NCBI GenBank assembly: GCA_003116975.1 | Contig: BGKB01000028.1 | Span: 1-64,000, forward strand | DNA length: 64,000 nt | Source of the DNA: Aurantiochytrium sp. KH105 | Taxonomy: Eukaryota; Sar; Bigyra; Thraustochytrida; Thraustochytriidae | Direction of reading: 5' to 3' | In this document: positions 22,268 through 54,988 of the stretch, in pieces | How the letters are laid out: each line of letters begins with the position of its first letter | Numbering within the stretch: the stretch's first letter is position 1 | The notes under the pieces: model-generated | The model's input: only the letters and a program-made list of their open reading frames with translations | Databases searched by the model: none | Told to the model about the DNA's origin: nothing | Translations under genes and position numbers: made by a program

Positions 22268-22535
22268 GCTCTTGCTGCTTCTTGAGCTTGCGGCTTGGCT
22301 TGGCCTTGCTTGGCTTGCTGAGACAGGAGCGACGGGTCCCCCGGCTCAGGCCTCGCCTTGTTCAATTTATTACGGAGTTTGTTTGTTGCACTTGCGGCCG
22401 AGCGGCGCAAGTGCGTTATGGGCGAAGCTGCCCTTTTACCGGCACCGCACGCTTGCGGCGCCGAGGCTGCGAAGCGAAGAGGTTTTGTTGGCCGCCTGCG
22501 CCATGGCTCTCCTGCTTTTTGTCTGTTTCCGCTTT

Positions 22536-23730
22536 CACCCCCTCTTTTCTCCGTCTTTACTTTTTCTTTCCTATTTCATTTCTTTTTCTTCTTCTTTTAG
22601 TTTTCTTTTACTTTTTCTCTCTTGGCACCGCGCTGCGCTGCGCTGCGCTGCGCTGCTCAGAGCTGCTCAGAGCTGTTCAGTGCTGCGCTGCGCCATGCAG
22701 TCAGTAGTCAGTAGACGGGCTGTCCTATTCTCGTGCTGGCGTGCCTGGCCGCTCGCCTGCTCTGACGCCTTGCTCGAGACCAATCCAATAAAAAGCCCAG
22801 TCCACTTGGCCGCCTGCCTCATGGACGGAAAAGTGAGCGGTGAATCCTTCCGCCTCCTTTTCCTTTTCTCCTTTTCTCCTTTTCTCGATTCTTTCTTTCT
22901 TTCCCTCCCTCGCTCACTCACGCACTCCTGCCATCTTGCTTGCTTGCTTGCCTGCTTGCTTTCTTTCTTGCTTTTTTTCTTTCATGCCTTCATTCTTTCA
23001 CTCGTTCATTGGCCATTCTTTCCTTTCCTTTCCTTTCTTTTCCTTTCGCATTCATTCTCTCTCTCCCTCTCTCTCTCTGGCTGCCTCCGGCGCTTCCTCC
23101 CCTCGGCTGTCCTTCTTTCGGTGCCCGCCCTCCCGCGGCTCGACCCGACTCCAGGCCTTGACGCCTCTGCCCGACGGACGCGCTCCCGGCCGCCCTGCGC
23201 AGGCCGCGCCGCCACTCCCTCCCTCCTCTCCCCTCCCTCTCCGCGTCCGCGTCTCCCTCCCGCCCCTGGCTCCTGGCTCCTTCTCCCCTACTCCTCGTCC
23301 CTCCGGGCGCCTCCGAGTCCCGCCTCGCGCGGGGCCCGGAGCCGCTCCCCTCCTCGCTTCCCTCTGCCTCTGCCTCCGCCCGTGCTCGGCCCGGCCGCGC
23401 CTAGAGGGGAGAGGGAGGGAGGGAGCGGGGCGCAGGCGCACTTGCCGGCAAGGGAGCGAGGGAGGGAGGGAGGGAGGAAGCGGCCGCGCCTTCCGCGCCG
23501 CGGCGGCTGAAAGAAAGAAAGAAAGAAAGAAGAAAGAAGGCAGGCGGGCAGGGCGGCCAGCACGGAACGGAACTCAAGCAGCGCGAGAGAGAGGGAGCGG
23601 GAGAGAGGAAGGGAGTCCAGGGCGGGCGCGATCGAGCGGAGGCAGGGAGAGAAAGAAAAGAAAGCATGAAAGAAAGAAAGGAAAAAGAAAGCGGGCGCGA
23701 CGGGAGGGAGGCGAGGAATCAATCAGTCGC
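22536..23730. repeat. Pyrimidine-rich then purine-rich strand switch
   Basis: The plus strand is strongly C/T-rich from about 22536 to 23400 (CTTTCTTT, CCTCCCT words), then strongly A/G-rich from about 23401 to 23730 (GGGAGGGA, GAAAGAAAG). The two halves are roughly complementary in type, so long imperfect foldback, H-DNA or R-loop structures are possible. Confidence 0.6.
22631..22656. repeat. (GCTGC)n pentanucleotide tract
   Basis: Five tandem GCTGC units about 365 bases upstream of the kinase gene start, followed by two GAGCTGCTCA-type words. Confidence 0.8.
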
Positions 23731-24630
23731 GCGATCGGGCAGGCGGGCGAGCGGGCGACCGGCGGTGGATCGATGGATCGAGCGGCAGGGCGCTGGAGCG
23801 GCCGGTCAGCCAGTCAGCGAGGCGAGCTGCGCGGGGCGGCGAGTCGTCGGCGAGTCGGTGAGCGGCGAGTCGATCGCTCGCTCGCTCGCCCGACCGAGTG
23901 AGTGATGCATCGACCCCTCCCTCCATCGACCGGATCGACCGGGCGATCAAGCAAAGCGGCGGCCGTCTGCTCTGCTTCGCACTGCTTCGCACTGCGCAGC
24001 CCTGCCTGTCCTGCGCTGCACTGCGCTGGGAGGCCCGGCGGGGCGGAGTGTAGGAGTGGACGCGGGGCGCGCGACGGCGACCCTGGCGACTGCAACTGAC
24101 CGACGCATGCGTGCGTGCAGTGCGTGCATGACGAGTCGACCCGCGTCGAAGCGTGTCGCAGTCGCGCGCCGACCGGGCGGGCCGCCGACCGCACGGGTCG
24201 GCGGCGCCGCACCGCACCGCGTCGCGCCGCCTCCCTGAGCTCGCTCGCTCGCTTTCTTTTATTTCTTTTCTTTTTCCTCTCAGCTTTCGCTGTTTCCTTC
24301 CTTCTTCCCAGCGCTCTTATTGGCCATCCGTTGATACATTCCTATTCCAGCATTTCTTTATTTTCTATTCCAAACAATAAATTCACTTTTTTGTTGATCA
24401 CTCATTTATTCATTCGCTTCACAGGCCAAGCCAAGACCCGAACAAAAGTATACACATACAACTAACTGGAAAAAAAAAGAAAGAAAGAAAGAAGGAAACA
24501 AATAATGGAGGCCGGCCGGGGAAAGAAAAGCAGCCACCGGCCACCGCGCCAGCTCAGCCACTACACCAGTCGAATCCTGGCCGGCTGCTTGGTTGGCGTT
24601 TTTTCTCGCACCGAGATCGCCCGTCTCCCT

Positions 24631-24692
24631 GCCTTGACTGCCTTGACTGCCTTGACTGCCTTGACTGCCTTGACTGCGTGCCTTGACTGCCT
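24631..24692. repeat. 9-bp minisatellite TTGACTGCC
   Basis: Five tandem copies of TTGACTGCC, one slightly altered, then a further copy after GTG. Confidence 0.85.
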
Positions 24693-25962
24693 GCCACCGT
24701 GGCTGCTCAGTTTCCCCTTTCCGCTGTCTGGCCTGTGAGGGCCGCGCTGCGGGGACACGGTCCGGGGCCCCCCTCCCCTGCCTGGCCCCTTGCGAGGCGG
24801 GACCCTCCCCGCACCTCGCGCCCGCTTCCTCCCTCGCCCTGCCGCTGCTGCTGCTTGCTCGCCACCCCGCCGTCGGCCCCGCAGCCGGCTCGCTAGCTCG
24901 ATCGCCCGACTCGCCCGCCCGGCAGCTAGCTCGCGCCTGCCTGAACTGGCCGGCGCGAGTCAATCGCCCTCTCGGCTCGGTCCCCGTGCGGCGTGCGAGC
25001 GTGCGAGCGTGCGTGCGTGCGTGCGTGCGTGCGTGAGGGAGGGAGGGACGTGACGAGCGCACGCAGGGCCGGCGACGCCGGGACCGGGAGAAGCAGCAGC
25101 ATGCAACTGCAGAGGATGTGCAGACCGCAGCGGCGGGTCGATGGATCGGTCGATCCTCCCTCCCGGTGCCGGCCAGAAGAGGAAGAAAAGAGGGCCCTGG
25201 TAGTTGGGCGCGCTGAGGGGCGCGGGGAGACACGGCGAGCACGCGATGCGATGCGAAGTAGAGGCTAGCCGTAAAGGCAGGCAGGCAAGCAAGCAAGCGA
25301 GGAACTGGGAGAAAAGGATGGACGCGGTAGCGCACGCTGCGCTGCGATGCGACGCCATGCAGGCGTTACGACGCGGTGCGGATCATGCATCGGGGGGTGG
25401 GTGGCGGGGAAGGGAAGCGACAGCGAGGCGAAGCGAAGCGCAGGTCACGGAGTCCATCCCGCGGGAGCCTGGTCCGGCCTCGCCTGGCCTGGTCTGCGTA
25501 TCGACCGGCCCGGCCCGATGAGACAGACCGCCGCCCTGCTTGCTCAGCTAGCTTCGATGGCTGCTGCAGACAGACAGACAGACAGCTAGCTACAGTGAGC
25601 GGGTGGATAAGTGCGTGAGTGCGTGAGTGAGTCGGCACACAGAGAGACAGGGCGCCCGCGGGGACCAGCAAGGCCAGCAGTGGCAGGCCAGGAGAGGGAG
25701 GTCAGCGCCCGAAAGAAAGAAAGTGAAGCAAACGAATCCATCCTTGCTTTCTTCCTTTTTTCCTTTTTTCCTTGCTCGCGTCCATACCGCGCATGTGCAT
25801 GCTGCATCCATCCATCTATCCACCCGCTCCCGCCTGGCCGCTCACCCGTCATCCAGCCACCTACCCACCCACCCACGCCCGTATGGCCATGATCCGTCCG
25901 TCACACGATGGCCTGTTGCGTTCCCGCTCCATACCTTGCTTCTTACCTCCTTGCTTTCTTGC

Positions 25963-26019
25963 GTTCGTTCGTTCGTTCGTTCGTTCGTTCGTTCGTTCGT
26001 TCGTTCGTTAGTTAGTTAG
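25963..26019. repeat. (GTTC)n then (GTTA)n microsatellite
   Basis: Eleven or so perfect GTTC units run directly into three GTTA units and then TCGA/GGTCGATC words: one tetramer family changes into another by single-base substitution. Confidence 0.9.
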
Positions 26020-27442
26020 TTCGATCGATCGGTCGATCGTCCGCTCGTTCCTTCGTCCGTCGCGGCTCCTGCCCTGATTCTTGCTTGCCTAACTTGCCTT
26101 ACCTGCCTTCCCTCGCCTCGCTTCGCTTCTTCCTCTCTCCGCTCGCTGCCCACCGCCTGCATCGCAGCGTAACCCTGAGGCAGACAGTCGCCACGCCGGC
26201 CAGTAAGCCAGCCATTGAGGCAGCCTCCAGCCAGCCAACGCTGCGCCACGCTATCTTCCCCGCAGGCAGGCTGCCGCCAGCCAGCTGCAGCAGCAGCTGC
26301 TTCCCAACTACCTCCACTGCTGCTGCTGCCTCGCTCGCCTCGGCCGTGGCTCAGCCGCGCCCGCCTGGAGGCGCTCCGCCCGGTCGCGTCTCGACTCGTC
26401 TCGTTGCGTCGCATTCACATCGCATCGCTTTTCATCGCAGTGCGCGCAGCGGGAAGCTTGGTGAGGACAGAGAGATCAAAGAAAGAGCGGAGAAAATTGG
26501 GCTTTTGGGAGACACACACACTCTGGGGCGAGGGAGAGACGGAGGGAGAGGGAGGCTACCACTGGCCTCGATGGCGGTCATTCATGCACGCATGCTCTGC
26601 CTGGCCTGCTTGGCTGCAGTGGCCATGGAGGCTGCTCAAGCAGAGTCAGCTGGCTTGCTGCAGACGCGCGCAACCGCGGAATGCGCAAAAGGCCGTGGTT
26701 CCGCAAGAATGGCGCAGTCAGCCAGCCACGCAGCCAGTCAGCCAGCCACGCGGCCGGCCAGCGGGGCCGCTTGATCGGGCCGTCTATCCACCACCCATCG
26801 ATCAATCGATGAGTCGATTGATCGACCGATTGATCGACCAATCGAACGAACGAACGAACGAACGAAGGATCGGCCAATCGATTGATCGCCATCCTTCTTT
26901 TGGTGCGCCTGGCCCCGGGTGGATCAAGCCCCTCCTTCCCTCTTCTTCCTTCCTCTCCTGTCCTCCAACGGAACAAAAGAAAGAAGGAAATACAGAATGA
27001 AAGAATGAAAGAAACTACTAGCGCGCAGTCAACCGCAAATGAATGCTCGCTTCACAAGCGCAAGGAGGCGCGCAGCCAGCCTCCTTCCTCTGCGCGCGCC
27101 TGCACTCCCCGCTCGCCTTCGCTCACCGCCTTCGCTCACGCGCGCGCTGAGCCGGGCCGGCGTGGCTGGCGTGACGTGGCGCGCGGCTCGGCCCCGGACG
27201 CGTCGCAGCGCATCGCATCGCGTCGCGTCGCAGCGCATCGCATCGCGTCGCGTCGCGCCTGCGTCGCGCCTGCGACTCGCGTAGGCCGCGTCGCGGTCGC
27301 GGTGCGCCTGAGCGGGCTGCGACTCGCGCGTGGCCCCGTTGCCGGCGCGGCGCGTCCACTCCCGCAGCGGCGTATAACCCACTTCCGCCCTCGCCAGCTT
27401 CAACTTGCCCTGCGCCCCGCAGCCCGCCCTCCCCGCCGCCAA

Positions 27443-27495
27443 GCCAGGCAGGCAGGCAGGCAGGCAGGCAAGCAGGCAGCCAGCCAGCCAGCCAG
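27443..27495. repeat. (GGCA)n / (GCCA)n microsatellite
   Basis: Tandem GGCA units change into AGCA and then GCCA units within 50 bases. Confidence 0.8.
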
Positions 27496-27771
27496 TCTCG
27501 TTCGCACAAGCAAGCCGAAAGAAGCTCTTTCCGCGGGCCCATTCTCGACTTGCGCCCGACCAACAACTAACTGTAAGTGCGCAGCCAGCCTGGCCGCCTA
27601 ACCGTCTTTCCGGCGCACCTTGACCTGCCCTCGCTGCTGCAGCTGGCCGGCAACAGCAGGCAGCAGCAACAGCAACCAACTCGCCCGGCCCGGCGCCACT
27701 CGACGCGACGCGACGAGACGCCGCACCCAGCGTCTTCCGCGCGTCTTCCGCGCTGGGCTCCGGCCTCGCGC

Positions 27772-27803
<32 letters not shown>

Positions 27804-28029
27804 CTCACCCGACTCGCCACGCGGCCAGGACCAGGCGCGAGGAACTCGAAGAGGAAGGAAGCGAGCGAAGGCGCGAACGGATCGCCAGGGGCGCTCGCCG
27901 GTCGCCCGCGCTCTGTCCCTCCTTCTGGCTGTCTGTCTGTCTGTCTCTCTGTCTGCAGCCAGCTGCAGCAGCAGCCAGCTGCTTTCGTGCGCCTGCGGCG
28001 CCGCCATCGCGCCCAGGCTCGGCCGGCCG

Positions 28030-28098
28030 TCCGGTCGGTCGACCGGCCGGTCGGTCGAGCAGTCGGTCGGTCGGTCTGTCGGTCGGTCGGTCGGTTAG
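28030..28098. repeat. (GGTC)n microsatellite
   Basis: Tandem GGTC/GGTT and CGGT units, partly interrupted by GACCGG, which gives local self-complementarity. Confidence 0.8.
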
Positions 28099-31000
28099 TC
28101 GCCGGGTCGTCCGTGGAGGCGAAGCTGGCCGCACTTGGGAGTCAGCCAGGCGAATGCGCACGGGGCCTTTATTGCGCGCGCCCTCCCTCCCTCCCTGCTC
28201 GTACTTTCTCGCGCGGGGCACGCACGCATGCACGCACGCACGCTCGCTCGCAAGAGCACGGGCCGCCGGCCGGCGCGGGCGGAGGCAGAGCGCCGGCCGC
28301 GCCTCGGCCCCGGCCGGCCCGCGCGGTGCCCTCCCTCACTCCCTGGCCGCGCCTCGGCGCCGCGCGCGTCGCTGGCCGCCCGCCGTGACTCGGCCGAGGC
28401 GAGCCGGACGGCAGCCTGCACCCTGCAGCGGCTGCGGCCTATGAGCTATAACTGTAATCTCACCGGAAATCGCCAGCCAGAGAGGATAGTCGATGGCACG
28501 CACTGCGAGTCGGCTAGGAGAGGCTGTGACGCGAGGGGATGAATGTGAATCATTCAGCCATGGCAGGGGGAGCGGAAGACACACGAGAAAACGGCGCAAG
28601 TAATAGCAACTGCATGTATAGTACATTATAGGCAAGAGAAAAAATGAAAGCAAGTAAGCAAGCAAGCAAGCAAGCGACACCAGCATGGTTGTAGCAGCGT
28701 GCTGGGCCTGATGGGGCTCAAGTTGACCGCACTTCGACTGACGCAGAGCGCGTGTCCCTTGGTCTGGCGGCAGCTGGTCGGGGGGGGAGCCCGAGCCAGC
28801 CAGCGCAGCTTTTCACAAGAAGGTAGTAGTGTGAGTCATTTATCCGTCGATCGCGTGCGAGTGAGTTGTGCGTGGCAAGAGTGTTTCCGTAAGACCCCAT
28901 CTGGCTGGCTCGAACCGAGACTCGCTTGCTTGCTCGGCGAACACCTGTCCACCACTAGCCCGCTTTAACCACTATCTACAGTGAACTCGCCGCAACCTTA
29001 AAAAAAAGAATAAAAAAGAATGAAATAACAGGGCCTTGATGCGGCCCAAGTTCGAGAACCACGCAGCCCGCACCCACGCCCCACCGCGACTTTCTTGCTT
29101 GCTAGCAAGCTCGCTAGCTACGCTCAAGCGAGTCTCGGCAGCAACAGAGAGAGGCTCAGCTCCCGTCGCCTTGCCTCTACTCGCACGGCATCGCGCGGCC
29201 CCCAGCCACCGCTTCCAGCCAGCCAGCTCTTTTAGCTTCTTTCTCCCTCCCTCCGAGCGCCGGTCTTTCTTTCTCCGCAGCTGCCACGCCGCCTGGACCG
29301 GACGCTCAAGAGCGGAAACGGAAGCTGCACAAGCAGCGCCGCGGTTCTTCCCTTCCACACCTCGCACGCTCCTCCCCCGAGTGGGAGAGACGGAGGGAGG
29401 AAGGGAAGAAGGGAGGACCCTGCATCGGGGCGCGGCGTCTCCTGCCGCGTGGAGTGTAGTAGGGTTTGTTTGGCCTGGTTTACGGCTATGGTTATAGCGA
29501 CGGCAGGCGATCTCCACCGCGAGGCGGCTTGCTTCCAGGAGCCTGCTTCCGAGTAACGCTCGTCTTGTGTGCGCGCACAAGAGCAGCTTCTCGGAGGAGG
29601 AAGCAAGGACCGAAGGAAGGACCGAAGGATGGATGGATGGAGGGAGGAAATGAAAATTGGCGGATGAATGGCTGGGGAGAGACACGCACATGAGGAGAGG
29701 ACCGATGCGACGCGCGGCGAGCGAAGGTATGGATGGACACAGCCTGGAGCCAAAAAAAGCGGCCCGAGCTCTCCGCGTCGCCAACCCGTGCCATACCACC
29801 CCGTTGCTCGGCCGTTGCAACCGCGACTCGCCGCTGGCACGGCCACTGCGGTGTGCAGCAAGGCCTGCCTTCCCGGCGAGTTACAGCCACCTGGCCATTC
29901 TTCCCACACCCCTGGTCCGCGCGCGGCGTGGTGTGCGCGAGGGAGTGTGCGCGTGTGCTCATGCGTGCACCGGGTCTGCGAGCTGCCCTGTTGCGAGCCG
30001 CCTCCTTTTGCGGCCTGGGCTCCCCGCAGCGCGGCCGAGCCGACCTCGCGCGGTCGGTTGGTCGATTCGGCAGAGACAAGCCAAGCCGAGACAAGCCGAG
30101 ACAAGCTGAGCCGAGACAGGGGAAAGAAGCCGGAGGTCAAGAACAAGAACGACGAGACTCTCGACCGGCCGGCTGCCGGTGGCCGGTCACGTCGGCCGGC
30201 CAGGCCGCGCTGGCCGATGGATCGATGGATCGATGGAGCGATCCATCGATCTTCCTTCCCGACCGCGTGGCTGCCATGGCCAGTCTCGGCCAGCGAGGAG
30301 CGCGGAACACGCACGCTAGCGAGCTGCAGCTGACTGGCGTGGATGTCGACTTTCATTAGCCTCGCGCGCCAGGGTCCAGGCCCGGGAGGACGGTGGCGAC
30401 GGCGCCTCGGCCACTCTGCATTTGCAGCCACTTGCGCGCGCGTTTCGATCGACAGACAGACTGACAGACAGACGGAGAGACAGACAGACAGTCAGACAGT
30501 CAGACGCGGAGACTGTGAGTCGGAAGCAGATGCAGACGCAGAGCTGCAGCAGCAGCAGCTTCATTCAGCCCAGGGACGCGGCCTGCTTCAGGCTTATCCC
30601 ACGCACGGCGCACCGGAACCAGAGAACCAGAGCCAGGCACGGCGAGCAAGCAAGAGAGCAAGCAACAAGCAAGGCCTGGCTGCGCGGTATCGGAAGCGCT
30701 CGTTCGTCGCTCGTGCCGTGGCTGTGGCTCGCGTCGTGATAAACCCGCCGCCGCTGGCCAGCCTGCGTTGCCAGACATCGCGTAACGGCCCTCGCCAGCC
30801 GCCGCGCCTCCGCAGCCACGCGGCCGCCTGCGGATTCACACAACAGCGCGGCAGTCAGGCACGGCAGCGGCAGCGGCGTCACGGCGCTGCAGATCGTCCG
30901 ACAGACAGACACAGTTAAGAGACATAGATACAGGAGAGGGACGGCCCTGCTGACCGAGGACGACGCAGATGCGACGCAGACAGGCGAGGCCAGCATGGCG

Positions 31001-32530
31001 CTTCCCCCAAGCGGGCCTGGCCTCTGTGACGCGGCTGCTGCCTGACGGAGCGTAGAGACAGACAGACGGTCGGCCTCGCGCCAGCGCTGCCCGATCCCGA
31101 GCCGCGGGCCCTCCGCACCGCGCTCAGCTTCTTGTGCGGCTGCGCGTCGTACGGTCGGCCCGGCTGCGGCCCGGCCGGACGTAGTCGGTCGGAGGTCGCC
31201 AGGCAAGGCAAGGCAGGTCGGTCGCGGCCGGCCGGCCAGCCAGCTGGTTGTCCGAATCTTGGCTTCTTGGCTGCTCTTCTTGGCTCCTGAGATCAGCCAG
31301 CTGCAGGCTGCCCTGCTTGCATCTAATTCTTTTCCTCTCCTTCCCTTTTCTTTTCTTTCCCGAGGCGCCCGACCGAGGCTGCGAAACTCGCGACCCACAG
31401 CGCGCCCGCAGCAACGTGCTGGCGCGCTGCGGGCTTCCTCTCGCCGGCGCGGGAGCCGCCGCTGCGGGGCGCCTGCGAACTTTCTGTTATTCTGTCCTTC
31501 CTTTTTCTCCCTCCGGCCACGGCTCCTCCATGACTTGCGCGTTTCTGCGCCTCTACCCCGCGGACGTACGCCTCTTCTGTCTACCTCTGCGTCTCCGTGT
31601 TCACGTCTGCGACGCATCCGCATCCACCCACGCGTCCGGGCGCGGCGGGGTCGCAGTTGCCACCTCGGCCCGGCCCACACCGCGCCGCCGATCCTGGCAG
31701 TGGTGGCTGGCTGATCGGCCCTGGCTGGCATGCATGCAGGCTCTTGAGGCGGCAGTGCCTGGCTGGTGCTAGGCGTTGCACGGTGGCCGGGGCCGACTCG
31801 TCGAGGGAGGAAGACCTGTTTTAGGTCATGTAAAAGTCTGAGGAAGAAGGAAAACGTCCGCGGGAACGGGTCTGGCTGCTCGAGCACGACCAGCCATCAG
31901 CGCAGCCAGCAGCAGCAGCAGCTAGCTACCCTGAGGAGGCGCGGTCCGCTGCCGGCCAACGAAACTCTCGAATTTCGAGCTTTTTCCAAATGTTGAGCCG
32001 AGAGCGGCCCGCAGAATAAAAGCTTGGCTGTTCTTTTGGCTGCCTCGCCGAGTTGCGCACCTCATTGTCCCTTTTCTGTGTCCGCTTGTAAGAGAGATCA
32101 TTTCGCCAACATTTGTCTCTTTGCCATAAGTCAGATGCCAATGATGTGAGGACCGTATGCAATTTTCGCATTTCCTCTTTTCCATGCTTGCACCTTGTCC
32201 TCGAATTGTAGCTCGTGGCAACAATTGTTTTGGAGTCTTGGCTTGGTCTCAAGTTGTATGTATAGTACATGCTTGCATGCCACATTATTATTGCATCCCA
32301 AGCGGCCACAGGCAGACAGACACTCCTTTTTTTTCTGGCGCGTGCTCTAATAGATGATCGAGCTTGAACGCTTTCTCTATTGCCACTAGGCTTCTACTTG
32401 TCAGGACAACGACTTGTCAGAACTCTGTCATGTGTGCATTTCCGATGCTTTGTCATAAGCAGTGCTTTTGCACGCATTTGGCCAAAGACAACCGTCATGA
32501 CAAAACCCTGTCTTCCAAAAAAAAAAAAAG

Positions 32531-33062
32531 TGCTCTTGCTGTTGTATGTATTTGCCATGATCACCTCGCTGCGTTCGTGTGGCCAAGATGTAATTGTTGT
32601 CTTGGCACCTGACAGTGCTCCTGCTCTTGCATGTATTTGCCACGATAACTCCGCCGCGGGCAGTACTTTTTCTCAAAACTTTGTTGTTGTAAAAGAAAAA
32701 GTGCTCTTTCATTTGCTGTTGCTCTTGATCTTGCTCTTGCTGTTGCTGTTGCTCTTGCTGTTGCTGTTGCTCTTGCTCTTTCATTTGCTGGTTGCTGTTG
32801 CTCTTGATCTTGCTCTTGCTCTTGCTCTTGCTGTTGCTCTTGCTCTTGCTCTTGCTCTTGCTCTTGCTCTTGCTCTTGCTCTTGCTCTTGCTCTTGCTCT
32901 TGCTCTTGCTCTTGCTCTTGCTCTTGCTCTTGCTCTTGCTCTTGCTCTTGCTCTTGCTCTTGCTCTTGCTCTTGCTCTTGCTCTTGCTCTTGCTCTTGCT
33001 CTTGCTCTTGCTCTTGCTCTGGCATACATTTGCCACGATATCTCCGCTGCGTGCGTGCGGCC
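32531..33062 (+). repeat. Three ~48-bp related repeats flanking the hexamer array
   Basis: Segments at about 32531-32584, 32615-32662 and 33011-33062 share TGCTCTTGCATGTATTTGCC, then ACGAT, CTCCGCTGCG and TGCGGCC in order. The hexamer itself (TGCTCT) is the start of this unit, so the array probably grew by slippage from one end of it. Confidence 0.75.
32716..33020. repeat. (CTCTTG)n hexanucleotide array
   Basis: From about 32815 to 33020 the plus strand is an almost perfect run of CTCTTG (about 34 copies). The 100 bases before it are a degenerate version with TGTTGC and TCATTTGC interruptions. All frames are open on both strands because no stop can form. Confidence 0.95.
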
Positions 33063-33151
33063 AGCAACACAAACACCTCTCAGAACTTTTTCTTTCGTTG
33101 ATGCGAGTTGATGTGAAATAAATGTCCCAGACAGCACCCGTGCTTGCTGGT

Positions 33152-33160
33152 TATAAAAAA
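33152..33160 (+). promoter_or_regulatory. TATA-like box of the AMP-binding gene
   Basis: TATAAAAAA lies 67-75 bases upstream of the ATG at 33227, a plausible core promoter distance with a short leader. Confidence 0.5.
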
Positions 33161-33226
33161 AAAATCGTCCCAGGCAGATCATGTGGTCATTCAAAACCCG
33201 TTGGCTGGCCAGGCGAAAAAAACATC

Positions 33227-34687: not shown

Positions 34688-35174
34688 TGGCAACTTTCTC
34701 CATTATGGACCCTGCGGGGCTAAAGCACCCGCAACCTGAAGTGCGTTTTTCCCGATGGAATTCCGATGGAATTGTCTTATTGGTTATATTCGTAGCCGGC
34801 GGAGCCGGTCTTGACAAAGGATGACTTGTAGAAGAAGGAGACTTGGGAGTAGATTTAGCAGATTTAGCGGCAGGAGAGGCTGTGGCTTGCACTTTTGACG
34901 CGGGCCTTTTAGGTGTGGAAGCAAAGGCGGAAACCTGGCTTGCTTGAAGGGATCGGGGAGGCTGAAAGTCGTCTCTCGCAGAAAAAGCAGGTGCAGATCT
35001 CGACGCAGAGAAAAGCTGGCGTCTCGTCGGCTGCCCTTGTTGAGTTCTGTCGAGGCGGTCTCTGAAAGCATCTTCGTCGTCCGTGAGCTGCCCATGCTCG
35101 CTGTCGTTACCGTCTATGGCCACACCCTGCGTCGCGTTGACTTTGTCCCCGCTATTTATGCGAGGTCGTATCAA
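34650..35174 (-). CDS. Hypothetical low-complexity protein
   Basis: 174 aa, rich in Ser, Ala, Pro, Thr, Lys and Arg (AKSAKSTPKSPSSTS), with no recognised domain and a CGCF motif near the C-terminus. It is tail-to-tail with the AMP-binding gene and overlaps it by 38 bases. The residue order looks more like a disordered protein than a GC by-product, but there is no homology evidence; it may not be real. Confidence 0.35.
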   Translation of the reverse strand: MIRPRINSGDKVNATQGVAIDGNDSEHGQLTDDEDAFRDRLDRTQQGQPTRRQLFSASRSAPAFSARDDFQPPRSLQASQVSAFASTPKRPASKVQATASPAAKSAKSTPKSPSSTSHPLSRPAPPATNITNKTIPSEFHREKRTSGCGCFSPAGSIMEKVAIILAEGQNLLGQ

Positions 35175-43371: not shown

Positions 43372-43535
43372 GAATTTGCTGAAAAAGGGGGGACAAGCGT
43401 CTTTCGTGTAGAGCGTCTAGTAAAATATTGTATGAATGTGTGCGGACATCATTCATCGTTCAGTCACTCATCATTGCTTGAGCGGCAAGGGAACACTCGA
43501 AAAAGGTTCTAATATTCAGTGAATAGAATAGAATG

Positions 43536-43634
43536 TTACTGGTCTTGTGCGGATGGGCCTGCTTTGTAGACGGTGTCGTTGTTTTGCGTGCGCTGCCGCT
43601 CCTGCTGTTGCTGTAGTTGCAGGAGAAGTTGTTG

Positions 43635-43684
<50 letters not shown>

Positions 43685-45929
43685 AAAGAGGGGACTGCAG
43701 CAAGAGCGAGACAGCGGCAGAATTGTTGGAAAGCAGTGGCCCAGAACTCGTCGAAGAGGGCGGGGCAGAAGAGGACGACGACAAGGTTGGTCTCAAAAGC
43801 GGGGATGTTGAAGACGTCAGAGCATTGTAAGCAGTCTCTCCAGAGGAGGCACGGTTGAGTTGTTGTTGTTGTTGTTGTTGTTGTTGCAGGAGCCAGAGTG
43901 GCTGTTGTTGCTGATGCAGTTGCTGTTGTTGTTGATGATGAAGCGAAGGTCCGCTGCCCGTGCTATTGAGGCTGCTAGAGCGATAGATGGGAGCGGAGCC
44001 GGAATCTAAACCGAGTCGGTGAGCAGAACTAGCGTAAGAAGAAGAAGAAGAAGAAGAAAGGCCCGACAAGAGGTCCAAGCGATCTCGCAGTCCCGCATCA
44101 CTGCCCAAGTTTCCCTGAATCGACGAAAGCGACGGGGCAAGTGCCGCCGAAGAAAAAGAGGACCGCGTTGAAGGGCCCGAAGAGCCATACCAGTTCATGT
44201 CACCCTGACTGAAGCTGGCGTTGTCGCGAAGAAGAAGTTGGACCGCCGCACGAGCTGCGCTTGGTTCGAGTTGTCGGAGATACTCGAGGGTCCCTGCAGG
44301 GAGACGGTCGAGCGAAAGACTGGACGCGGTTCCGCCCGCCTGGTGCGGGTAAACCTGTTGCTGCGTTTGCAACCCGGACAAATGCTGAGAACGCAATAAA
44401 TCGGCCGCGCTGGAGAAGGCTCCAAGCGACGCAAGTCGTTCGTCGAAATCCGCGCGCGTCAAGATCGAAGACTGCTGCTGGAGTTGCGACGGCGACGATG
44501 ACGACGAGGTTGATGACGAAGATGATGATGATGACAAGGACGCGACGCGATTGGCTGCGGCATTTGCTGCGGCGGCCTCTGCAGCCGCAGCAGCAGGAGT
44601 GGGCGCACCGGGCTGTTTCCAGGCCGAGGTGAGCCGAAAGGCTGGCGAGTCTGCGTGAGCCACACATGTCATGGTTTTCCGGGAGACGACGTAAATTGTA
44701 AAGACGTGCTCCTGTTTCATAGTGTGTTTGGCGAGCTTGCACAGGTAGCGCCAGCGGCGCTCTGCAATGAATTCGACGAGCCAGCGTCCCGCCGATGGCT
44801 CAAAGGATTTCCACTCACCGCGAAAGACCTTGTTTCTGCTGATGGGGTCCTCCTTGAAGAGTTTTCCGACGGTCTGGCCAGCTTCGTAGAGAAGGGGAGA
44901 GCTGGCCTTGCGAATTCCCGCGTAAAGCTCAAGTCCCAGAGCGTCGACTGCCGAGCGGTCGAGCATGTAGAGGTGAGCGCATACAGACTGTCCGCAGAAG
45001 CCGTTTTCCATGTGACGCGCGAGACACGCGGGGAAGCAGCGCAGGTTCTTGTGTCGCGTGCGTACGTACGAGGCCTTCCACTCGTGTACATTACAGAATT
45101 CAATGTCGCGGACGGGTCCCTGACAGCTCTTGGCGGGCGCGATGTTGCCGAGGGCGACGGCAGCGGGGCTCGAGCATGCGCTCGGTGCGTCGCTTCCGTT
45201 GTCTCGTTTTTGCGCCTTGCTCAGGGAGCCGTCGCTGCTCGCGGAGGGTGCGCGGGGTCTTTTGCGTGCAGAGTTCTCTTGGTTCGAGCCGGCGGAAGCG
45301 TTCTTGACGAGTTGGCTAGTGCTGTCGTGTGAGACTGATCGTGTCTGCTCTTGCAGTTGCGTCTGTCGCTGCTGCTGCTGCTGCTGTTGCTGCTGCTCTT
45401 GCTGCTGTTGAAAGGCGCGCATTGTTTCGAGGAGCATGTTTGGTGTCGTCGAGGACGATTGCAGAGCGGCTTGCAGGTGGGGCGGCAAAAAGGAAACGAG
45501 GTTTGGTTGCGAGAAGGACTCGAGAGCTGTCGCAGCTGAAGTTGCGGGCGCAGGGACAGGAAGACCTTGGCCTGCTCGCGGCGCGCCGGCCGCATTCGCA
45601 GTGGCATTTGCATTGGCACCGAACGAGGCGAGAAAGTCGTACTTGTTTTGCCTGAGCAGCTGAAAGTTGCGCCCCGCAAGCTCCTGGTCCTGGCGAGGGT
45701 TTTCCGACGTTGCGTGCGCGGAGGGCTCCTTTTTCACCGCATCGCTTTTTTGCGCGACGTTGGGTCCCGAGACGGCGCGAGAAGCTGCTGCCGCTGCTGC
45801 TGCTCCTCGATCATCCTCGTCTCCCGTGTCCGGAGCGTTGCCCTGCGTTTGTCCACCTTCTGCAGAGGGAGAAGCCCGCTGCTGCTGCTGCTGCTGCTGC
45901 TCGCGGTGCTCCTGGTCTGCGGGCGGCAT
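43536..45929 (-). CDS. PolyQ/Ser-rich protein with an orphan Cys/His-rich domain
   Basis: 797 aa from ATG 45929 (MPPADQEHREQQQ). The frame stays open to 46679, but that stretch is Arg/Glu low complexity from (TCCTC)n repeats and is probably leader. Gln runs occur at several places (CTG/TTG repeats), with Ser and Asn-rich linkers and a KRPR basic patch. Residues about 273-437 are the only ordered part: FCNVHEWKASYVRTRHKN, then RCFPACLARHMENGFCGQSVCAHLYM, then FRGEWKSFEPSAGRWLVEFI. The spacing C-x3-C-x3-H-x5-C-x4-C-x-H suggests zinc binding. The makeup is that of a transcription or chromatin regulator, but I recognise no named family. Confidence 0.7.
43638..43681. repeat. (TTG/CTG)n trinucleotide run in coding sequence
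   Basis: TTG units followed by about 13 CTG units on the plus strand encode a Gln run near the C-terminus of the leftward gene. It is likely length-polymorphic. Confidence 0.9.
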
Positions 45930-46900
45930 GTCCAAGAGCGCGCTCCGGGCGCGGTGGTCCCTGCCGGCCCCGCGGGCGGCGGCGGCGCCGGTGGCGCCGG
46001 CAGCAGCAGCAGCGCCAGCAGGCGCCGCCTGCGGCTCGTCGCCGCCGCCGGCCTTGTCGCGCGGCCTGCGCTGCGCCCTCTGCGCGCGCTGCGCGCGCTG
46101 CGCGCCCGCTGCCGCCGCCTCGACCGCGGCTGCGAGCAGGCACGGAATCTTGAGGACCGTGGATGTCCCGGTTCGCGCACGTGCCCGCCCTCGCGATCCC
46201 GCGCGCCCGCCCGCCGCGCCGCGCCTGCGCTCGCGCTGCGCGCCCTGCTCTCCTCTCCTCTCCTCTCCTCTCCTCTCCTCTCCTCTCCTCTTCTCTTCGC
46301 GCTCTGCCTGCCTGCCGCGCGCCCGCCCGCGCAGCTCCGCCCGCTGCGCGCCTCTGCTCTGCTCTGCTCTGCTCTGCGCCACCCCGTGTCGCGCCGTGTC
46401 GAGTCGCGCGTCCCCGCTGCTTCCTGCCTGCCTTCCTTCCTCCCGTCCTCCCTTCGTGCGACCTTGGTCCGCTGACCTCCTCCTGCACCTCGCGCTCTCG
46501 CCGCGGGCTCGGCGCGGGCTCTGCTCCGCGATCCTGCGCCGCCGTCCCGCGCTGCGCTGCGCTGCGCCGCGCCGCGCTGCGATGCGATGCAGCTGCGATG
46601 CGCTGCAGCTGCTCGCGCGACCCGGCTGGGTGCGCGGCGAGGGAGAGTCACTCGAGGGATCAAGGGACCTCCCGAGCACCCGCCACTGGGGCGGAGGACG
46701 GAGGCGGGTGGAGGGGGCGTGCGGGGAGGAGGAGGGCCGGCCGGCGGACGGCGCGGCACTCCGCGGAGGGTGGAGGCGGGCGAGCGAGCGGGCGGGGTGA
46801 ATCGAGCGGGAGCCCGCTCGATCGCTCCGTCGAAGGAACGACGAAGGGGGAGAGGGGCTGCTGCTTCCTGCGCGCCTTCCAAGCCTCGCGCGGGGAAAAA
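45930..46900. promoter_or_regulatory. 5' region of the polyQ gene: pentamer tracts and strand switch
   Basis: It contains (TCCTC)n at about 46248-46295, (GCTCT)n at 46353-46377 and GCTGC/GCGCTGCAGCTGC words at 46550-46612. The plus strand changes from pyrimidine-rich (about 46245-46480) to purine-rich (about 46620-46860). This mirrors the layout upstream of the kinase gene in island 1. Confidence 0.55.
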
Positions 46901-48279
46901 CCGAGCGCCGGGAGCCTTTCTTTCCTTCTTTCTTTTCTTTCTTTCCTTTTCTTTTCTTGCTTTTCCCTCGTTTTCTTGTCCGTTTGTTTCCTTTTCTTTC
47001 TTCCTCGCTGCTTACAGCCTAGCCTTGCAACGCGCCAATGCCAGGTCGCGTGCGAGGTCACCACCGCGCACCGCAGTAGTAGCCTCCCGCCCTCCAGGAG
47101 AAGCGCAGCACCGCACCGCGCCGCCGTTCAGGCGTAGCCAGCGAGATAGCTAGCCCTCTGCGCAGACTCAGAGCGCGCGAGACCGCCGCGCACGATGGTT
47201 TCGTTCTCCTCGAAGAACGAACGGAGACCCGCCACGCGAAGCGTACCGAAGCGACGCAGACGGGGAGCAGTCGTGACCTTGTTTCTTTCTCTCCTTTTCT
47301 TTCTCCCCCTCTGTCTGCGGAGGGGGTGTGCGCGCGGCGGTTCAGGCAACCGCGCGACCCGAGCCAATCTTGACTGGACGGGCCTCGCTCCGCCGCGCCG
47401 GCTGCTCTGCAGAAGAAAGAAGTCTGGGCGCAGGCCGGCCTTGCTCGTGAGCGTGCACAGGTTCGGGCAGGCTGCGCTCGCGCCGACGTGCCTCGGATGC
47501 ACGGAGGGGAATGGGATTCAAACGATCGTTCGATCGACCGATCGATCGATCGAACGAACGAACGAAAGAAAGAAACAAGAGAAAGAAAGGGGGAAAGCAA
47601 GAAAGATTCGCAGACAGCCGGCGCGGCGGCGCCTTTCTACTGTACCGGGGCGAGGCGAAGCCGAGCTTAGTCTCGCCGCCACGCCACGCAACGCCACGCA
47701 ACGCCACACCTCGCCACGTACGAACGAACGAAGCAGCACCGGCGGGTGGACGTGTGGATGGATGGATGGATGGATGAATAGACGGACGGTCGACGCGCAA
47801 GCCCGCCGTTCGGGGTTTGTTCGCCGGTCCTGGCTGCGCCGCGCTGCCCTGCTGCTGCAGCAGCCGCTGCTGCTTTCTTTCCCTTCTACTCGCTTGCCCG
47901 CCAGCCAAGCGCCGTATCTTTCGTTCTAGCTTTGCTCTGCTCAACGCCGCGATCCGGCTTTGCTGCCTCGCCCGCGGCGGTTTCCTCGCGCCAATGCAGC
48001 GGCCGCAAGAGGGAGTGAAGAAGCCCACGCGCCTTTCGGTTTTTGCCCGCAACGAGGCGGCGCGGCGTCCGAGCTTTCGATGAGCGCGCAGTGCAGAGGT
48101 TGTTGCCTGGCTGGCCGGTGGGAGGAAGAGGTCGCCGACGCCCCGCGGCTGCGTGCGTCTGAGGGGCGACCTGGAAGTGCGGGCCGCAGCAGGAAGAAAA
48201 GAAGTGCGCGGCCTTGGCGACAGGGGATCGCGACCAAGGCTCGTCACTCCACACCGCCGCCCGTCTCGCCCCTGCTTTG

Positions 48280-48345
48280 CTTCGCTTCGCTTTGCTTTGC
48301 TCTGCTCTGCTCCGCTCTGCTCCGCTCTGCTTCGCCTCGCCTCGC
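48280..48345. repeat. (GCTYY)n pentanucleotide tract
   Basis: GCTTT, GCTTC, GCTCT, GCTCC and GCCTC units follow one another for about 65 bases, a pentamer family drifting one base at a time. Confidence 0.85.
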
Positions 48346-48488
48346 CCGGCCTCACGGCAGCGAGATCTTCACGCTCCCGCCGCCGCCGGTGTGGTCCGGC
48401 GCCGACGCACGTTTGGACAATCCATACAAGACAAGACCGAACGTCATGGTCCGGGAGCACGGAGCCCTGCTTTGACGCAAGCCAGGAC

Positions 48489-48519
<31 letters not shown>

Positions 48520-49093
48520 CGCACGCACGCAGAAAGTTCGCAGCGGCCAACCGCACAGCGCAACAAACGCAGCGACAGTCCGGCCGGCCGACCGACAGCG
48601 TCTTGCTCCGCAGGCTGATCTCGGCTCTCCTCTCCTCACCTTGGCCGCCAGTCAGTCTGCGAGACCGAGACCACCCTCTGCCCCCGTGCTGCAAGACAGC
48701 CACAGCCAGCTACTTCCTTCCCTTGTCTTACCTTGGGCCCGACGGACTTGCACGCACGCGCACACTCACAGTTAGACACGCACACAGAGACAGACAGACT
48801 CAGACAGACAGACAGACAGACATGAGACAGAAGCAAACGCACGCACACACGCACGCACGCACGCACGCACGCCGGAGCCGCCTGCCTGCCTCCGTGCGTG
48901 CGGTGCGCGTGAAGTCGCTTGGCCCTCGGCACAGTGAGGCTCGCCAGGCCCTGCGCGGCCGCGGCTGCAGCTACACCCACTATAGTACCCTTTTGCGTCA
49001 TGTGGCTTTCTGCGCGCGACTCGCTGTGACGACGGCTGCGGCTCGCTCGTTCACGCTTTCAAGCAACAAACAACCCGCCCGCGCCTCCCAGCA

Positions 49094-49130
49094 TCCATCC
49101 ATCCATCCATCCATCCATCCATCCATCCAT
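49094..49130. repeat. (CATC)n microsatellite
   Basis: About nine perfect CATC units; on the other strand GATG. GCATG/GATGCATG words follow near 49250-49330. Confidence 0.9.
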
Positions 49131-52100
49131 GCGTCCTCCCATCCGTCCATGCTGGCCGCGCGGGCGGACCCGAACCGACGCGCGGAGGCGCTCGCTCGCA
49201 CTGACCGCGCGGCTCAGGGAGGCAGGCGCATGCCATGGCTGGCTGGTGCATGCATTGACGCTTGTAGGCATGCATGATGCATGGATGCATGGACGCATGA
49301 TGCATGGATGCCTCGATGGTCGATGTATGGATGCCCGGGACCGCCGCTTCACCGCGCGGTCCTTCCGTTCTTGCGTGCAGTGCAGTGAAGTGCGGTGCAG
49401 ACAGACACGCCCGTCGCACGGAGCCAAGGCCGCGCAGATGAGAAGACATAGATCGAGACATGTGCCCGACACGAGACCGCGTATCGCAGGCCATGCGGCG
49501 GCATCTTGCGTCGCAACTCCTGCGCCTCAACACAGCGGATGGACGGGCCCGCCGCGTGTACGCCTGCAGGTGCAAGCATGGCTGCCACCGCGTCCGCCGA
49601 CCCGGCCTCGCCGGGCGCGGAGGTCGTGCGTGCGCGAGCTTAGGCGCGAGGCGAGGCGTCCCTGTCTCCATCTCTCGCTTCGATCGATAGAGACGCGCTA
49701 GCCGCCCTGTCTGCAGCTTATTCCGCCTGGAAGCGAGGTCCTCACGATTGCGTATTAGTTACCGCTAGCCCCACGGCTCGCCGCCGTCGACTACCTACTT
49801 CATTCCCCCCGCCCTGCCTTCCTCCCGACTGCGGTGGCCGCTGGTGCTGGCGGAACGAAGCCTCCAAACGAGTACGCAGGAGCGGAGGCACGGAAGGACG
49901 CTTGGGCCTGCCTGCAAGAGCCGCGCCGCGAGACGTCCTTTCTTCCTTTCTCCCATTTCTTTTTCCTTTCTTTGGCCCCTCCTGTGTTCGCACGGACGAT
50001 GGACGTGCGGCCACGGAGCGCGAGATCGCGGCGACCGCCATCACCGGTCGCGCCGTCCCGCGCGCTCCGTGCCTCCTTCTCGCTCTGCACCGATCGCGTC
50101 GGTTCGGTGCGGCCGCTCCGTCGTAGCCAGCCAGATCTGCACTGAGATACCGAGTGCAAGAGCGCGCGAGACGGAGGCAGAGAATGCAGCCGAGGCAGGC
50201 AAGCAGGCAAGCAGGCAGTTTAAAACAAGCCCATGCCGTGTGGGCGCTGCCCTGCCGTCGCGGCCCCGCGGAGAACACCCAGCGCAAGATTGCGACTCGC
50301 GCCCTCCCTGGTCCCGACTTCGGAGTGGCCGCAGCTGCCCCTCTCGAGCCAACCGTGCGCGAGATTCTGCGGCCATCAGCGCGGTCCAGCCAGCAGCCAC
50401 AGCTGGCTGACTTATCCCTCCCTTCCCCGAAACTTCTGCGGGGATCCTCGGCGGGTCGTGCCACTAAGGCCCACAGTATAGGAGGCACTTGAACGGTGGC
50501 AAGGCCGCTGCGGGTGTGCGGCGCGCGTACGGCCTCGGCCATTGCGGCCGCTTCGCCAAATGGTAGCTGGGCGTTCGTGAGTGAATGAATGTATGTGGCT
50601 ACGGATGCAGCTCCGACAAAGAGGTAGAAAGGTGCGTAGCTAGCGAGTTGGCCATGGTAGACGAGACAGACGGCAAGGCAGGCAGGCAGGCAGGCAGGCA
50701 GGCAAACAATCAGACAGGCAGGCAGATAGGCAGGTCCCACGCACGGAAAGTTCTTGCGGCAGACGGAGAAACGAGGCGCGCGCGCGGAAGCCAGAAATAT
50801 GACAATCTACCCTCCTTCAGCTACCTCGCTGGCCGCCCGTTCGAACTCCGACTGTCTGGCTGGATGTCTGGCTGACTGCCTGACTGGAACTCCTGCTCGG
50901 CCCGCGAGGCAGGCGCCCCGAAGTCGGGTTGGACGGCAAGCAACCAAGTGGCGGTTTCCCTCAATCTCCGGTCCATCTTGCTTAGCTCATGGAATGCCAT
51001 GTGACCGATGCAACCATCCATGGCTCCATGCAATCTTGCGGCAGTTTCCCAAGCTAGCCGTGCCGCTTGCTTGAACTGCCGGCTTGCGGCTGCGTTACAT
51101 ACGCGAACGCGCTTGCTGGCTAGCCTGCGTGCTCATGAACTAGCTAGCTTGCTCGCCCAACTTGAGCCCGGCCGGCCATTATATCTCATGGCCATGATGG
51201 CTACCGCCCGGTCTTCGCTTCGTAGAGCCAAAAAAAATTGTTGCCCTTTCCGTAAGGTAACAGCATCAATGAGATTCCCGAGCGAAAGTGCTTCACGATC
51301 TCGGATTGATCAGACACAGCTAGCTGTCAGCTGGCTGTAGCTGCTGCTCTCGATTCATCATGTCGACTGCATCAACCAACGGAGCCAACGCATACTTAAC
51401 GCACGCCACTACCGTCAACGCTTCAAACAAAGCAGAGCAGCTCAACGCACACGTCTGACAGTGAGTGCTCGCTTGCTTGCTTGCTTGCCAACCAGCAAGC
51501 CATTCAAACAGCCAGCCACCAGTTCTACTACCTACCTTCCGTTCCTGGGGACAACACGAACTTCAATCACCCGCCAATTGAAGAGGACCGGTACACGCCA
51601 GTTTTCGCGTGCTTTCCCGCGTGAAAGGCACCAGCTAGGCAGCAGCAGCATGCGATCAATCTATCTCATTTATCCATCTATTGACAAGCTGCACGCCTCC
51701 TGCTGCAGCTGCCAGCTGCAGCGGCGGCGGCGTCGTCTCCCTCCGTCGCAGCTCGCCGTCGCCAGCAAGCCAACACGCGCGGCTAGGCCAACTCGAAAGA
51801 CGGCTCGCGCTCGCACAGCGTCAAGTCTTCCTGGCAGGCCCAGTGGAGAGGAAAATGCGCAAGCACTGCCGGCCCGAGCGGCGGTGTGCTCGCGGTAGCA
51901 CGAGCGGCGACTGTGGGATCGTCATCTTCCAGGAAGAAGCCGACGCTTTTCACGGTCATCTACCCGCAGCGGCACCAACCATGGCAACCACCACCACCAC
52001 CTCTTGGCAGAAAAGCGAACGCAAAGAAACGGCGAGAGCAGGTCTTCAAGACTGCCTGCCTGCCGCCCACCCAAGCCGTCGCCAAGCAGCTTGTCATGCC

Positions 52101-52620
52101 ATCTCCTGCTACGCGCTTGCTGCCAGCCAGCTGCAGCCGCATTGCAGGCGTGGCGCTCTTCCCGCTCGGTCTTGGGGCGCCTGAGATCGTTCGTACCAAC
52201 GAGCTTGGCAGCGAGATTTTCTCGCTCGTACAATTCCCCGCTCATTTGCTTGCTCTGCTCACACGGCGTTTGCTGCGCCGCAGGACGACGCACGCAGTCG
52301 CAGACGCAGGTTTGGATCGTCTCCACGCGACGTCAAGTGACGTTTCGGGGAGAAGCAGCGAGCATGCCTGCTGGCTTGGCTGCTCCGGCCCCAATCTCAG
52401 CCGCAGCGCCGGCATGGTGTACAGGCCAGATCCTACCACGCTCTCTACCAGCCTGAGGTCGGTTTGTGGTCGACTCATGCTCGCGACGCCCAGCCTGAGC
52501 CTATATGGGCGCACGCGGCCCGCGTCGACGGGAATTTGCGGCGACAGCCAAATGGAATGACAAACTGCCAGCCAACGGTCAGCCCAAAGGTTAGCCTGTA
52601 TCATCGTATTCCGGACGGCT

Positions 52621-54075
52621 GTGTTGTTAGCACCCCATGATGAGAGGCCGATGCCAAGAACTCGCGCGCTTGCATTTGCTCCGCCGCGCCTTGGTATGCG
52701 CAGCTTCAGCGGCCTTTACACACAAAGTCCAACTCGCCAGATTGTCGGTGGACTGACGTGACCATGCGTCTACCCTCGACTCGCTTCCGGGAACTATAGT
52801 ATTGTCCGAGTATGGAAGAAGCGCGGTTGGCCGGCGCCGTCGCGAGGCCCACCAGCCTACCGAGCGACCTCGAAAACCTCCATCTCGAGGCCTACAGAGA
52901 CAGGTAGGTGGCGGCTCGGGGAACTCGCAAATGAGAATAACCGCCTCTTCCTAGCGGCTCAGCAGCAGCTCATCTGGCTGGCTGACAAGAGACGCCGCTT
53001 CCGTCACGGATAGGTATTAATATGGACTGGAACGGGCCGCTCTGCCACAGAACAAATTTGAGGCCCGAGGAGTGGTCGTAGGTCCAGTATACCATCGCAT
53101 AGTCTTCGGAATAATAAGTCCGCGAGCGGCAACAAAGCGCCGCCAACCCGAAGCCAGCTTGAAAAGGTAGGCCACCATGCGTCCATTCACGTGAAGAAAA
53201 CAGGGGCTGAAAAACCGCAGTCGCTCGAAGCCTACGCAAGTCAGTGATACCATCATCATCAGCGTCTGCGTCAGACGCGTCCCCCCAAAAGCCGCCGTCG
53301 GCTGCAGCTGATGCAAGTTGCGCAGTGCGATTCTTCTATATCGCCAACCACCAGCAGGGAGACGAGGGGGAGGGGGAGGGTCTATAAAAGGTCGGAGAAT
53401 CACTCACTGTCAGAGCAAGCAAAGAGGAATAGATCCTGAAATTTTATCAAAAGACGCTCGAGAGAGACATGACGCCGGCGTGCGTCGCTAGCAAAAATCA
53501 CAAACTTCCGCTCAACAATAATCCCCCCGATGCAAGATCGACAGTAACCTGGCGGGCTGTTCAAGCTGAGCGTTGACCGTCCGTCCGGAATCGGAGATAC
53601 GCAGACGTTCTGTGGACGCGCGGCCCCCACACAACCGTTGAAAATGAAGATGTCGAACCGCAATCCATGAGCTTACCCCAGCTGCCGAAGTTGGAAATTC
53701 GTGGGTCTCTTGAAACGCTCCAACCAAGGACCCGGCCGCGCGGGATTCAGTCCTCCAAAGGGTCTTGTCAACGGCTGCGGCCCGGTCGCACATCGACACG
53801 ACCTGACGGTTCCACCACAGGCTTCACCACCCTCGGCATTTCGACGCGACAACGCCATGGCCGAAATTGAAGGCATTCACTGATGCGTCCTGGCCAAAGC
53901 CCGAGGTCGCCTCTCCTCGTGACCTACCTCGGGCCACAATGAGTCATTATGCAATAGCTCAAAGGGCTACGACTCGTTGATTCAACCTTTTACCATGTAG
54001 TAACCTCAAGAGCAACCGCCACCGACTTCGGGTTTCGCTTACAAGTTACTCCTAGGCCTGGATTTCAGGTTCTAG
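52621..54075. other. Ordinary-composition inlay inside island 2
   Basis: About 1.4 kb without the short-word texture, with balanced composition. Only short frames are present. A possible mini-exon at 52812-52903 (MEEARLAGAVARPTS...) ends at a consensus donor (CAG/GTAGGT), and a pyrimidine-CTAG acceptor lies 51 bases on, but the joined frame stops after about ten more codons. I cannot assign this segment; it may be a gene remnant or an unannotated non-coding RNA locus. Confidence 0.4.
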
Positions 54076-54988
54076 ATGTTATTACCCGTATCGGCAAACC
54101 TCTATTTGCGCGCCAAGCTCGAGTGTGCCTCTGGATTCTCTGGCCGCTCTCGCGCTCCCTCGTTAACTGCCTTCGCCGTCCCTCTTCCCAAGTATTCGCC
54201 CTTCCTCATCCATGGCCCTCCCCTCCGCGGCCGGGCCCGGCGCTGGCCGCTGCAAGCCTCCGACCGCGCTTGCCATTGCCATCTGCAAGCCGCCCTACTC
54301 CTTGCTCGCTGACCAGCACAAGCAAGCAAGCAAGCAAGCACACCGCACTATTACTTATACATACATACACTGCACTGCGCGCGTGCACACCATCGCGGCG
54401 CTCTCTCCCACTGTCTCTCTCTCTCTTTCCCCGTATCGCAAGTTGGCAAGCCACCGCCGCGTCCCTGGGCCTCTTCTCGCGCCCCCGCCGCAGGCGCCGC
54501 GCCTCACCACTCCCTTCCGCTCCGCGCCGCGCCGCTCCGCTCGCGCGCGACGCGCGCAGGCGCGGCCCCGCGCGCACGCCGCTGCCGCGCCGCCCTGCGC
54601 GACGGCGCGGCCGGGACGCGCGCGGCCTCGTGCTCGCGGAGATCGCAGAGGGAGGAGACGCGAGAAGGCGACGATGACGCAACCCTCGGAGGCCTCGGCG
54701 CAAGGCCGTCAAAGCGACAACGCGGAGGCGAGGCGACGCGAGGCGACGCGAGGCACGCGGCAGACGCGCGGGCGCGACGGCGAGGCTGCCGAGAGCGGAG
54801 CCCTGGCTGCCGGCCGGCCCTCTGAGCGAGCGGGCGTCGTCCGTCTGCGGGTCGAAGAGGAGAGGAGAGGAGATTGAGAGCTCCGCGCCGCGGTCTGTCG
54901 TCGAGCGCGCGGCCGCCGCGTCGGCGAGGGGTGCCAGACACCGCGAGCTGCTGAAGCAGTCGACGCCTCCGCAGACAGCTTCTTCACA
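54076..54988. promoter_or_regulatory. 5' flank of the fatty acid hydroxylase-type gene
   Basis: Short-word DNA resumes (GCAA at 54320-54340, TACA at 54355-54370, CTCT) and becomes very CG-rich at 54480-54620. The last 100 bases lead to ATG 54989 in the context CACAATGGCC. The upstream frames carry no domain. Confidence 0.45.

Follow-up and report, generated by a model that had tools for sequence, protein, structure and literature searches.

Mosaic islands of short tandem words, mostly tetranucleotides, between divergent genes of Aurantiochytrium sp. KH105

Two intergenic regions of the thraustochytrid Aurantiochytrium sp. KH105 are filled with short words repeated in tandem, one word drifting into the next, which raises the question of what process writes such DNA and why it favors units of four. 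Both regions, termed here islands 1 and 2, are in the window, namely, the initial 64 kb of C28 (BGKB01000028.1), a contig of 656,170 bases in an assembly that comprises 76.0 Mb in 367 contigs; our spacer statistics cover 264 kb of this contig. An initial annotation, made from the letters alone, had described the islands as consisting mostly of 4-mers and partly of 5-mers and had proposed an unusual slippage regime. Our data favor the view that these islands are long promoter-side spacers of divergent genes, under weak constraint, that were built by slippage and scrambled by point mutation, a reading that we consider probable.

The texture was quantified as lag excess, that is, the identity of each base to the base n positions on, compared with dinucleotide-preserving shuffles. 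The lag-4 excess was +0.133 (z 29) in island 1 (22290 to 32000; GC content of ~65%) and +0.102 (z 23) in island 2 (46200 to 52600), and the lag-5 excess was +0.055 (z 11) and +0.038 (z 7), respectively, which bears out the described word lengths. Within the islands there was no excess over shuffles at lag 2, in-phase echoes appeared at lags 8, 12, 16, and 20, and period-4 coherence decayed over ~60 bases. Identity at lag 4, calculated per kilobase, was 0.34 to 0.49 in the bins at 22 to 32 and 46 to 52 kb and 0.22 to 0.33 in the remaining bins. A lag-4 excess above 0.09 was found in 58% of 156 island windows but in only 7.3% of 614 overlapping windows outside, and the 59 coding frames, when pooled, gave −0.015. 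The GC content was 64% in the islands and 57.5% in other spacers, and the observed/expected ratio of CpG was 1.07; there is thus no sign of CpG decay.

The limits of about 22.3 to 32.0 and 46.2 to 52.6 kb that had been assigned to the islands held, although a 400-base scan showed the 4-mer texture itself to be narrower, from 22.6 to 31.5 kb and from 46.6 to 51.8 kb; the segment from 46.2 to 46.6 kb contains chiefly 5-mers. A stretch within the second divergent spacer (52601 to 54100) is free of texture (lag-4 excess of −0.001). The announced resumption at 54.1 kb does occur, but it is weak and reaches only to 54.5 kb, within a segment upstream of the rightward gene (54100 to 54988) that is first pyrimidine rich and then purine rich. 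A search for a transposon around 52.6 to 54.1 kb gave nothing convincing; the only repeats detected were a direct pair of 15 bases and an inverted pair of 20 bases.

The islands also differ from their surroundings in the arrays that they contain. In their 16,102 bases we counted 80 perfect arrays, namely, 55 tetra-, 10 penta-, 8 tri-, 4 di-, and 1 mononucleotide array and 2 with longer units. The other noncoding DNA (82,882 bases) contained 201 arrays (61 tetra-, 37 penta-, 7 hexa-, 31 tri-, 32 di-, and 31 mononucleotide arrays and 2 with longer units), and the coding DNA (165,016 bases) contained 72 (1 tetra- and 46 trinucleotide arrays and 25 others). Tetranucleotide arrays thus number 34, 7.4, and 0.06 per 10 kb in islands, other spacers, and coding DNA, respectively, and their share in the islands (55/80) exceeds that in other spacers (61/201; p 5e-9). 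The tetranucleotides of the islands belong to 16 classes, so that neither a satellite nor a single amplified unit is present; satellite DNA or a satellite centromere, which would consist of one unit in long arrays, was therefore rejected. Short tandem words above the level of shuffles, with many motifs, are what is expected of cryptically simple or microsatellite-rich DNA.

How the words were copied can be deduced in part from their orientation. Direct recurrence of 6-mers within 20 bases was 13 to 21 times the shuffled expectation and dropped to ~2 times at 51 to 100 bases, whereas recurrence as the reverse complement was enriched only 1.3 to 2.2 times within 20 bases and 1.2 to 2.2 times up to 100 bases. 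This difference indicates local tandem copying rather than snap-back synthesis, and we rejected snap-back or theta-type templated copying as the main cause.

Slippage can also be observed between haplotypes. Near-identical gene pairs on separate contigs are frequent, exemplified by 7 pairs among 14 MutS matches, and nine locus pairs align at 95.6 to 98.3%; judged from these sequences, the assembly probably holds two haplotypes. We compared an island-like locus (L008, on C18) with its counterpart in the second haplotype (L049, on C11) over ~2.3 kb, for which 81% identity was reported. Both haplotypes carry the texture, and the differences between them include eleven copies of GGAT, a tract of TTTC, and units of CACT, GATC, AGGA, and CGTC, so that unit slippage is seen at this locus. 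The two sequences differed by 11.1% substitutions and 14.9 indels/kb, compared with 8.3% and 12.9/kb, respectively, in ordinary spacers. The latter, six in number and delimited manually, came from six of the nine genic pairs; the coding side of these six pairs showed 2.5% substitutions and no indels. Texture was almost absent from the nine genic haplotype pairs (2 of 120 windows above 0.06). A search with 26.0 to 27.0 kb of island 1 as the query found no second copy, a weak negative since the search skips simple repeats, and neither three of the flanking genes nor 126 to 132 kb of C28 yielded a second haplotype. Assembly matches to 2.3 to 22.3 and 44 to 64 kb were dominated by repeat families and are hence uninformative on second copies. 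The parts of C28 between ~20 and 132 kb for which no second copy was found, despite the many paired genes, may be hemizygous, homozygous and collapsed, or missing.

With respect to gene orientation, each island is flanked by a leftward and a rightward gene, as had been claimed, according to gene calls and Pfam matches. The calls on the 264 kb came from a codon model built in-house, which overlooks some genes, and two Pfam-supported genes were added by hand. Island 1 is located between a protein kinase gene on the minus strand (20372 to 22267; Pfam Pkinase, 4e-19) and a gene for an AMP-binding enzyme on the plus strand (33122 to 34687; AMP-binding, 1e-59), and island 2 between a minus-strand gene that matched no family (43536 to 45929; its start is uncertain, as the frame extends to 46679 with a GTG start) and a plus-strand fatty acid hydroxylase gene (54989 to 55843; FA_hydroxylase, 1e-19). 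Spacers elsewhere, said to measure 0.1 to 1.5 kb, reach nearly 4 kb by these rough calls. The two spacers longer than 4 kb in the 264 kb are those that bear the islands. Since divergent spacers form the longest class (median of 1,136 bases, versus 345 for convergent ones), the link of the islands to divergent genes is partly one of spacer length, and the probability that the two longest spacers are both divergent by chance is ~0.10, given that 23 of 72 spacers are divergent. A divergent spacer of 3.4 kb (256.7 to 260.1 kb) is without texture, and length alone is therefore not the cause.

The statement that spacers elsewhere mostly lack this texture needs to be qualified, since a weaker form is common (pooled lag-4 excess of +0.037 in the 68 other spacers), yet few windows there reach island values. 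With the islands excluded, the excess was 0.030 in convergent, 0.038 in tandem, and 0.039 in divergent spacers; short patches thus occur between convergent genes as well, but no long island does. Windows of 200 bases outside the islands exceeded 0.08 in 38 of 212 cases when nearest to a 5′ end and in 11 of 121 when nearest to a 3′ end (odds ratio of 2.2; p 0.036). Spacer orientation therefore has little effect on texture density, and proximity to a 5′ end has some. Sense-strand purines increase across the 200 bases upstream of start codons (59 genes). Moving away from the gene, sense purines switch to sense pyrimidines for three of the flanking genes, namely, the leftward genes of islands 1 and 2 (at ~23.3 and 46.6 kb, respectively) and the rightward gene of island 2 (near 54.7 kb). 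The remaining one, to the right of island 1, is an exception, being pyrimidine rich directly upstream, and many more switches occur inside the islands. These switches are compatible with promoter-side spacers. Among six loci on other contigs, a biased sample as they were chosen by their match to island 1, lag-4 identity was raised over most of 3 kb in three (L003, L005, and L008) and was patchy in the other three.

A preference for four led us to look for loss of MSH3, as MSH3 deficiency accompanies tetranucleotide instability in human cells, known as elevated microsatellite alterations at selected tetranucleotide repeats (EMAST) (PMC3507781). The islands resemble that condition in that tetranucleotide arrays are chiefly affected, and they differ from it in that the assembly contains an MSH3 homologue whose frame is open. 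The best PDB match of this gene (L018) was MSH3 (E 3e-95), with MutS, MSH6, and MSH2 weaker, and both copies have an open frame of 1131 amino acids, ~440 N-terminal residues being outside the locus read. We thus rejected loss of MSH3 as the cause of the bias, and the preference for four needs another one. Frames for MSH2 (L009) and MSH6 (L013), assigned by eye, are also present. In another of the seven MutS pairs (L015/L016), MSH2 was the nearest solved structure, with a match limited to residues 328 to 689 of the 696 read.

Under the reading that we favor, short tandem units would be gained and lost by repeated slippage, presumably during replication rather than repair synthesis; arrays would be born, would pass from one word into another through the mutation and spread of units, and would then decay, in spacers that are presumably under weak constraint. 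The preference for four may reflect the way in which four-base slips are generated or repaired here. The slippage regime of the initial annotation is well supported by the local direct repeats, the preference for four, the distinct spectrum, and the gains of units that distinguish the haplotypes of one similar locus. This reading does not explain the lengths of the islands or the strong tetranucleotide character of these two spacers.

A number of observations weigh against it. (i) The array spectrum is unlike that of other spacers, and the islands are therefore not simply more of the ordinary spacer texture. (ii) Mirror-image 6-mers are also enriched, ~7 times at 6 to 20 bases, presumably a by-product of array words like CAGC. 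(iii) The haplotype comparison covers one locus, which was picked for its likeness to island 1; several of its indels are long and nontandem, and automatic classing found strict period-4 indels in only 3 of 34 cases, versus 1 of 43 in spacers. Counting by eye, which was not blind and was done on the island side only, raised this number to 6 of 34, a weak difference (p 0.04). (iv) As the divergence at this locus is modestly above that of ordinary spacers, hypermutability beyond theirs is not established. (v) In two toy simulations no setting tried gave the observed lag-4 excess; slippage was too weak for array building in the former, and in the latter the result tracked the seeding rule, with mainly tetranucleotide arrays arising only when slippage was set to steps of four. 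These simulations decide nothing.

Several other explanations can be measured against the same data. It is possible, though in our judgment doubtful, that the islands form a regional mutator compartment for tetranucleotides, in which promoter-side spacers of a class of their own have a slippage spectrum shifted to four; replication, recombination, or mismatch repair would then have to differ locally, with the MSH3 gene seemingly intact. We regard as unlikely the proposal of recombination hotspots at divergent promoters, where slippage-prone break-repair synthesis would add units and GC-biased gene conversion would lift the GC content. The elevated GC content, the promoter-side location, and the deviating array spectrum agree with it, but outside the islands GC content and lag-4 excess were only weakly correlated (r 0.13). 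Selection might instead keep large promoter regions rich in tunable repeats, which would account for the higher frequency of texture near 5′ ends and for the purine/pyrimidine switches by three of the four flanking genes; the 16 tetranucleotide classes and the rapid divergence between L008 and L049 make such regulatory DNA decidedly unlikely.

Replication origins, fragile sites, or centromeres, as initially suggested, find no support, because the islands share no satellite and a weaker texture is present in every kind of spacer. That origins or centromere-like regions with a mutation regime of their own are involved is very unlikely in our view, even though the islands are long, distinct, and without called genes and number two per 264 kb. 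Island-like loci on other contigs also argue against it, but they may still be compatible with centromeres, depending on the chromosome number; the predicted centromeres of Phaeodactylum tricornutum are low in GC (PMC12227449), and the islands are the opposite. Templated insertion during break repair by polymerase theta would yield locally copied words and longer nontandem indels like some of those between L008 and L049, but the inverted copies it should leave are barely enriched, and we consider it extremely improbable. Finally, low-complexity coding sequence or an assembly artifact is hardly credible. Long open frames do exist on both strands inside the islands, but a Pfam scan of 10 island open reading frames (6 in island 1 and 4 in island 2) gave no match, for which reason hidden genes were rejected; the codon model, from whose first training round island frames were excluded, called no gene within the islands; and texture is found in both haplotypes of the similar locus.

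The islands had been presented as an undescribed kind of element, a claim that we do not uphold, as they are not discrete and resemble cryptic simplicity or microsatellite-rich DNA. Cryptic simplicity was reportedly described by Tautz, Trick, and Dover in 1986 as scrambled, drifting short words above chance and ascribed to slippage plus mutation. The islands share such words, but here they are packed in blocks of 6 to 10 kb in which one unit length dominates; the islands are thus a strong, unit-biased form of cryptic simplicity. With microsatellite clusters or compound microsatellites they have in common perfect and imperfect arrays and, at one similar locus, unit differences between haplotypes, and they differ from them in that tetranucleotides lead (55/80). 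In the data taken from a survey of 128 isolates of the stramenopile Phytophthora, di- exceeded tri- and these exceeded tetranucleotides, the latter at 2.35% (PMC8967354), a rough contrast because other thresholds and whole genomes were used. A search of literature records rather than full texts retrieved no account of such islands and none of tetranucleotide microsatellites in Schizochytrium.

The window contains further features. A hexanucleotide array of a different repeat type (TGCTCT; 53 copies by Tandem Repeats Finder) is located between island 1 and its rightward gene (32702 to 33020), and a 133-base unit in 2.8 tandem copies at 98% (19792 to 20158) extends across the end of a RING-finger gene. 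The long uninterrupted frames encode ankyrin/TIR, WW, FKBP, RING, kinase, and lipid-enzyme domains, and a 5S rRNA gene is present at 5240 to 5359. The region at 2675 to 6067, which takes in the ankyrin/TIR gene and extends beyond the 5S rRNA gene, matches many diverged copies elsewhere, several of them near contig starts, which may reflect a subtelomeric setting. A dispersed repeat of ~1.2 kb (58085 to 59294), directly followed by a single assembly N, had 34 matches elsewhere among those listed, including 28 at 100% identity; in 30 of these matches the start falls within query positions 14085 to 14095, beside a T run, and the other end is partly variable, somewhat as in 5′-truncated copies of long interspersed nuclear elements. 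A second dispersed family (62623 to 63766) occurs in at least five other places at 92 to 94% identity. In the assembly, the front part of a polyunsaturated fatty acid synthase of the PfaA-type family scored 930 bits, the curated cutoff for the whole being 1010; an open frame exceeding 2,000 codons is near it on the opposite strand, and other synthase parts are on other contigs. This gene arrangement speaks for a thraustochytrid.

If the shift to four is truly regional, the islands would offer a natural assay for what determines slippage unit size where an MSH3 homologue has been retained, and it would become directly testable whether indel mutagenesis varies by region. If it is not regional, they would represent unusually strong cryptic simplicity and a caution against calling repeat-rich spacers elements.

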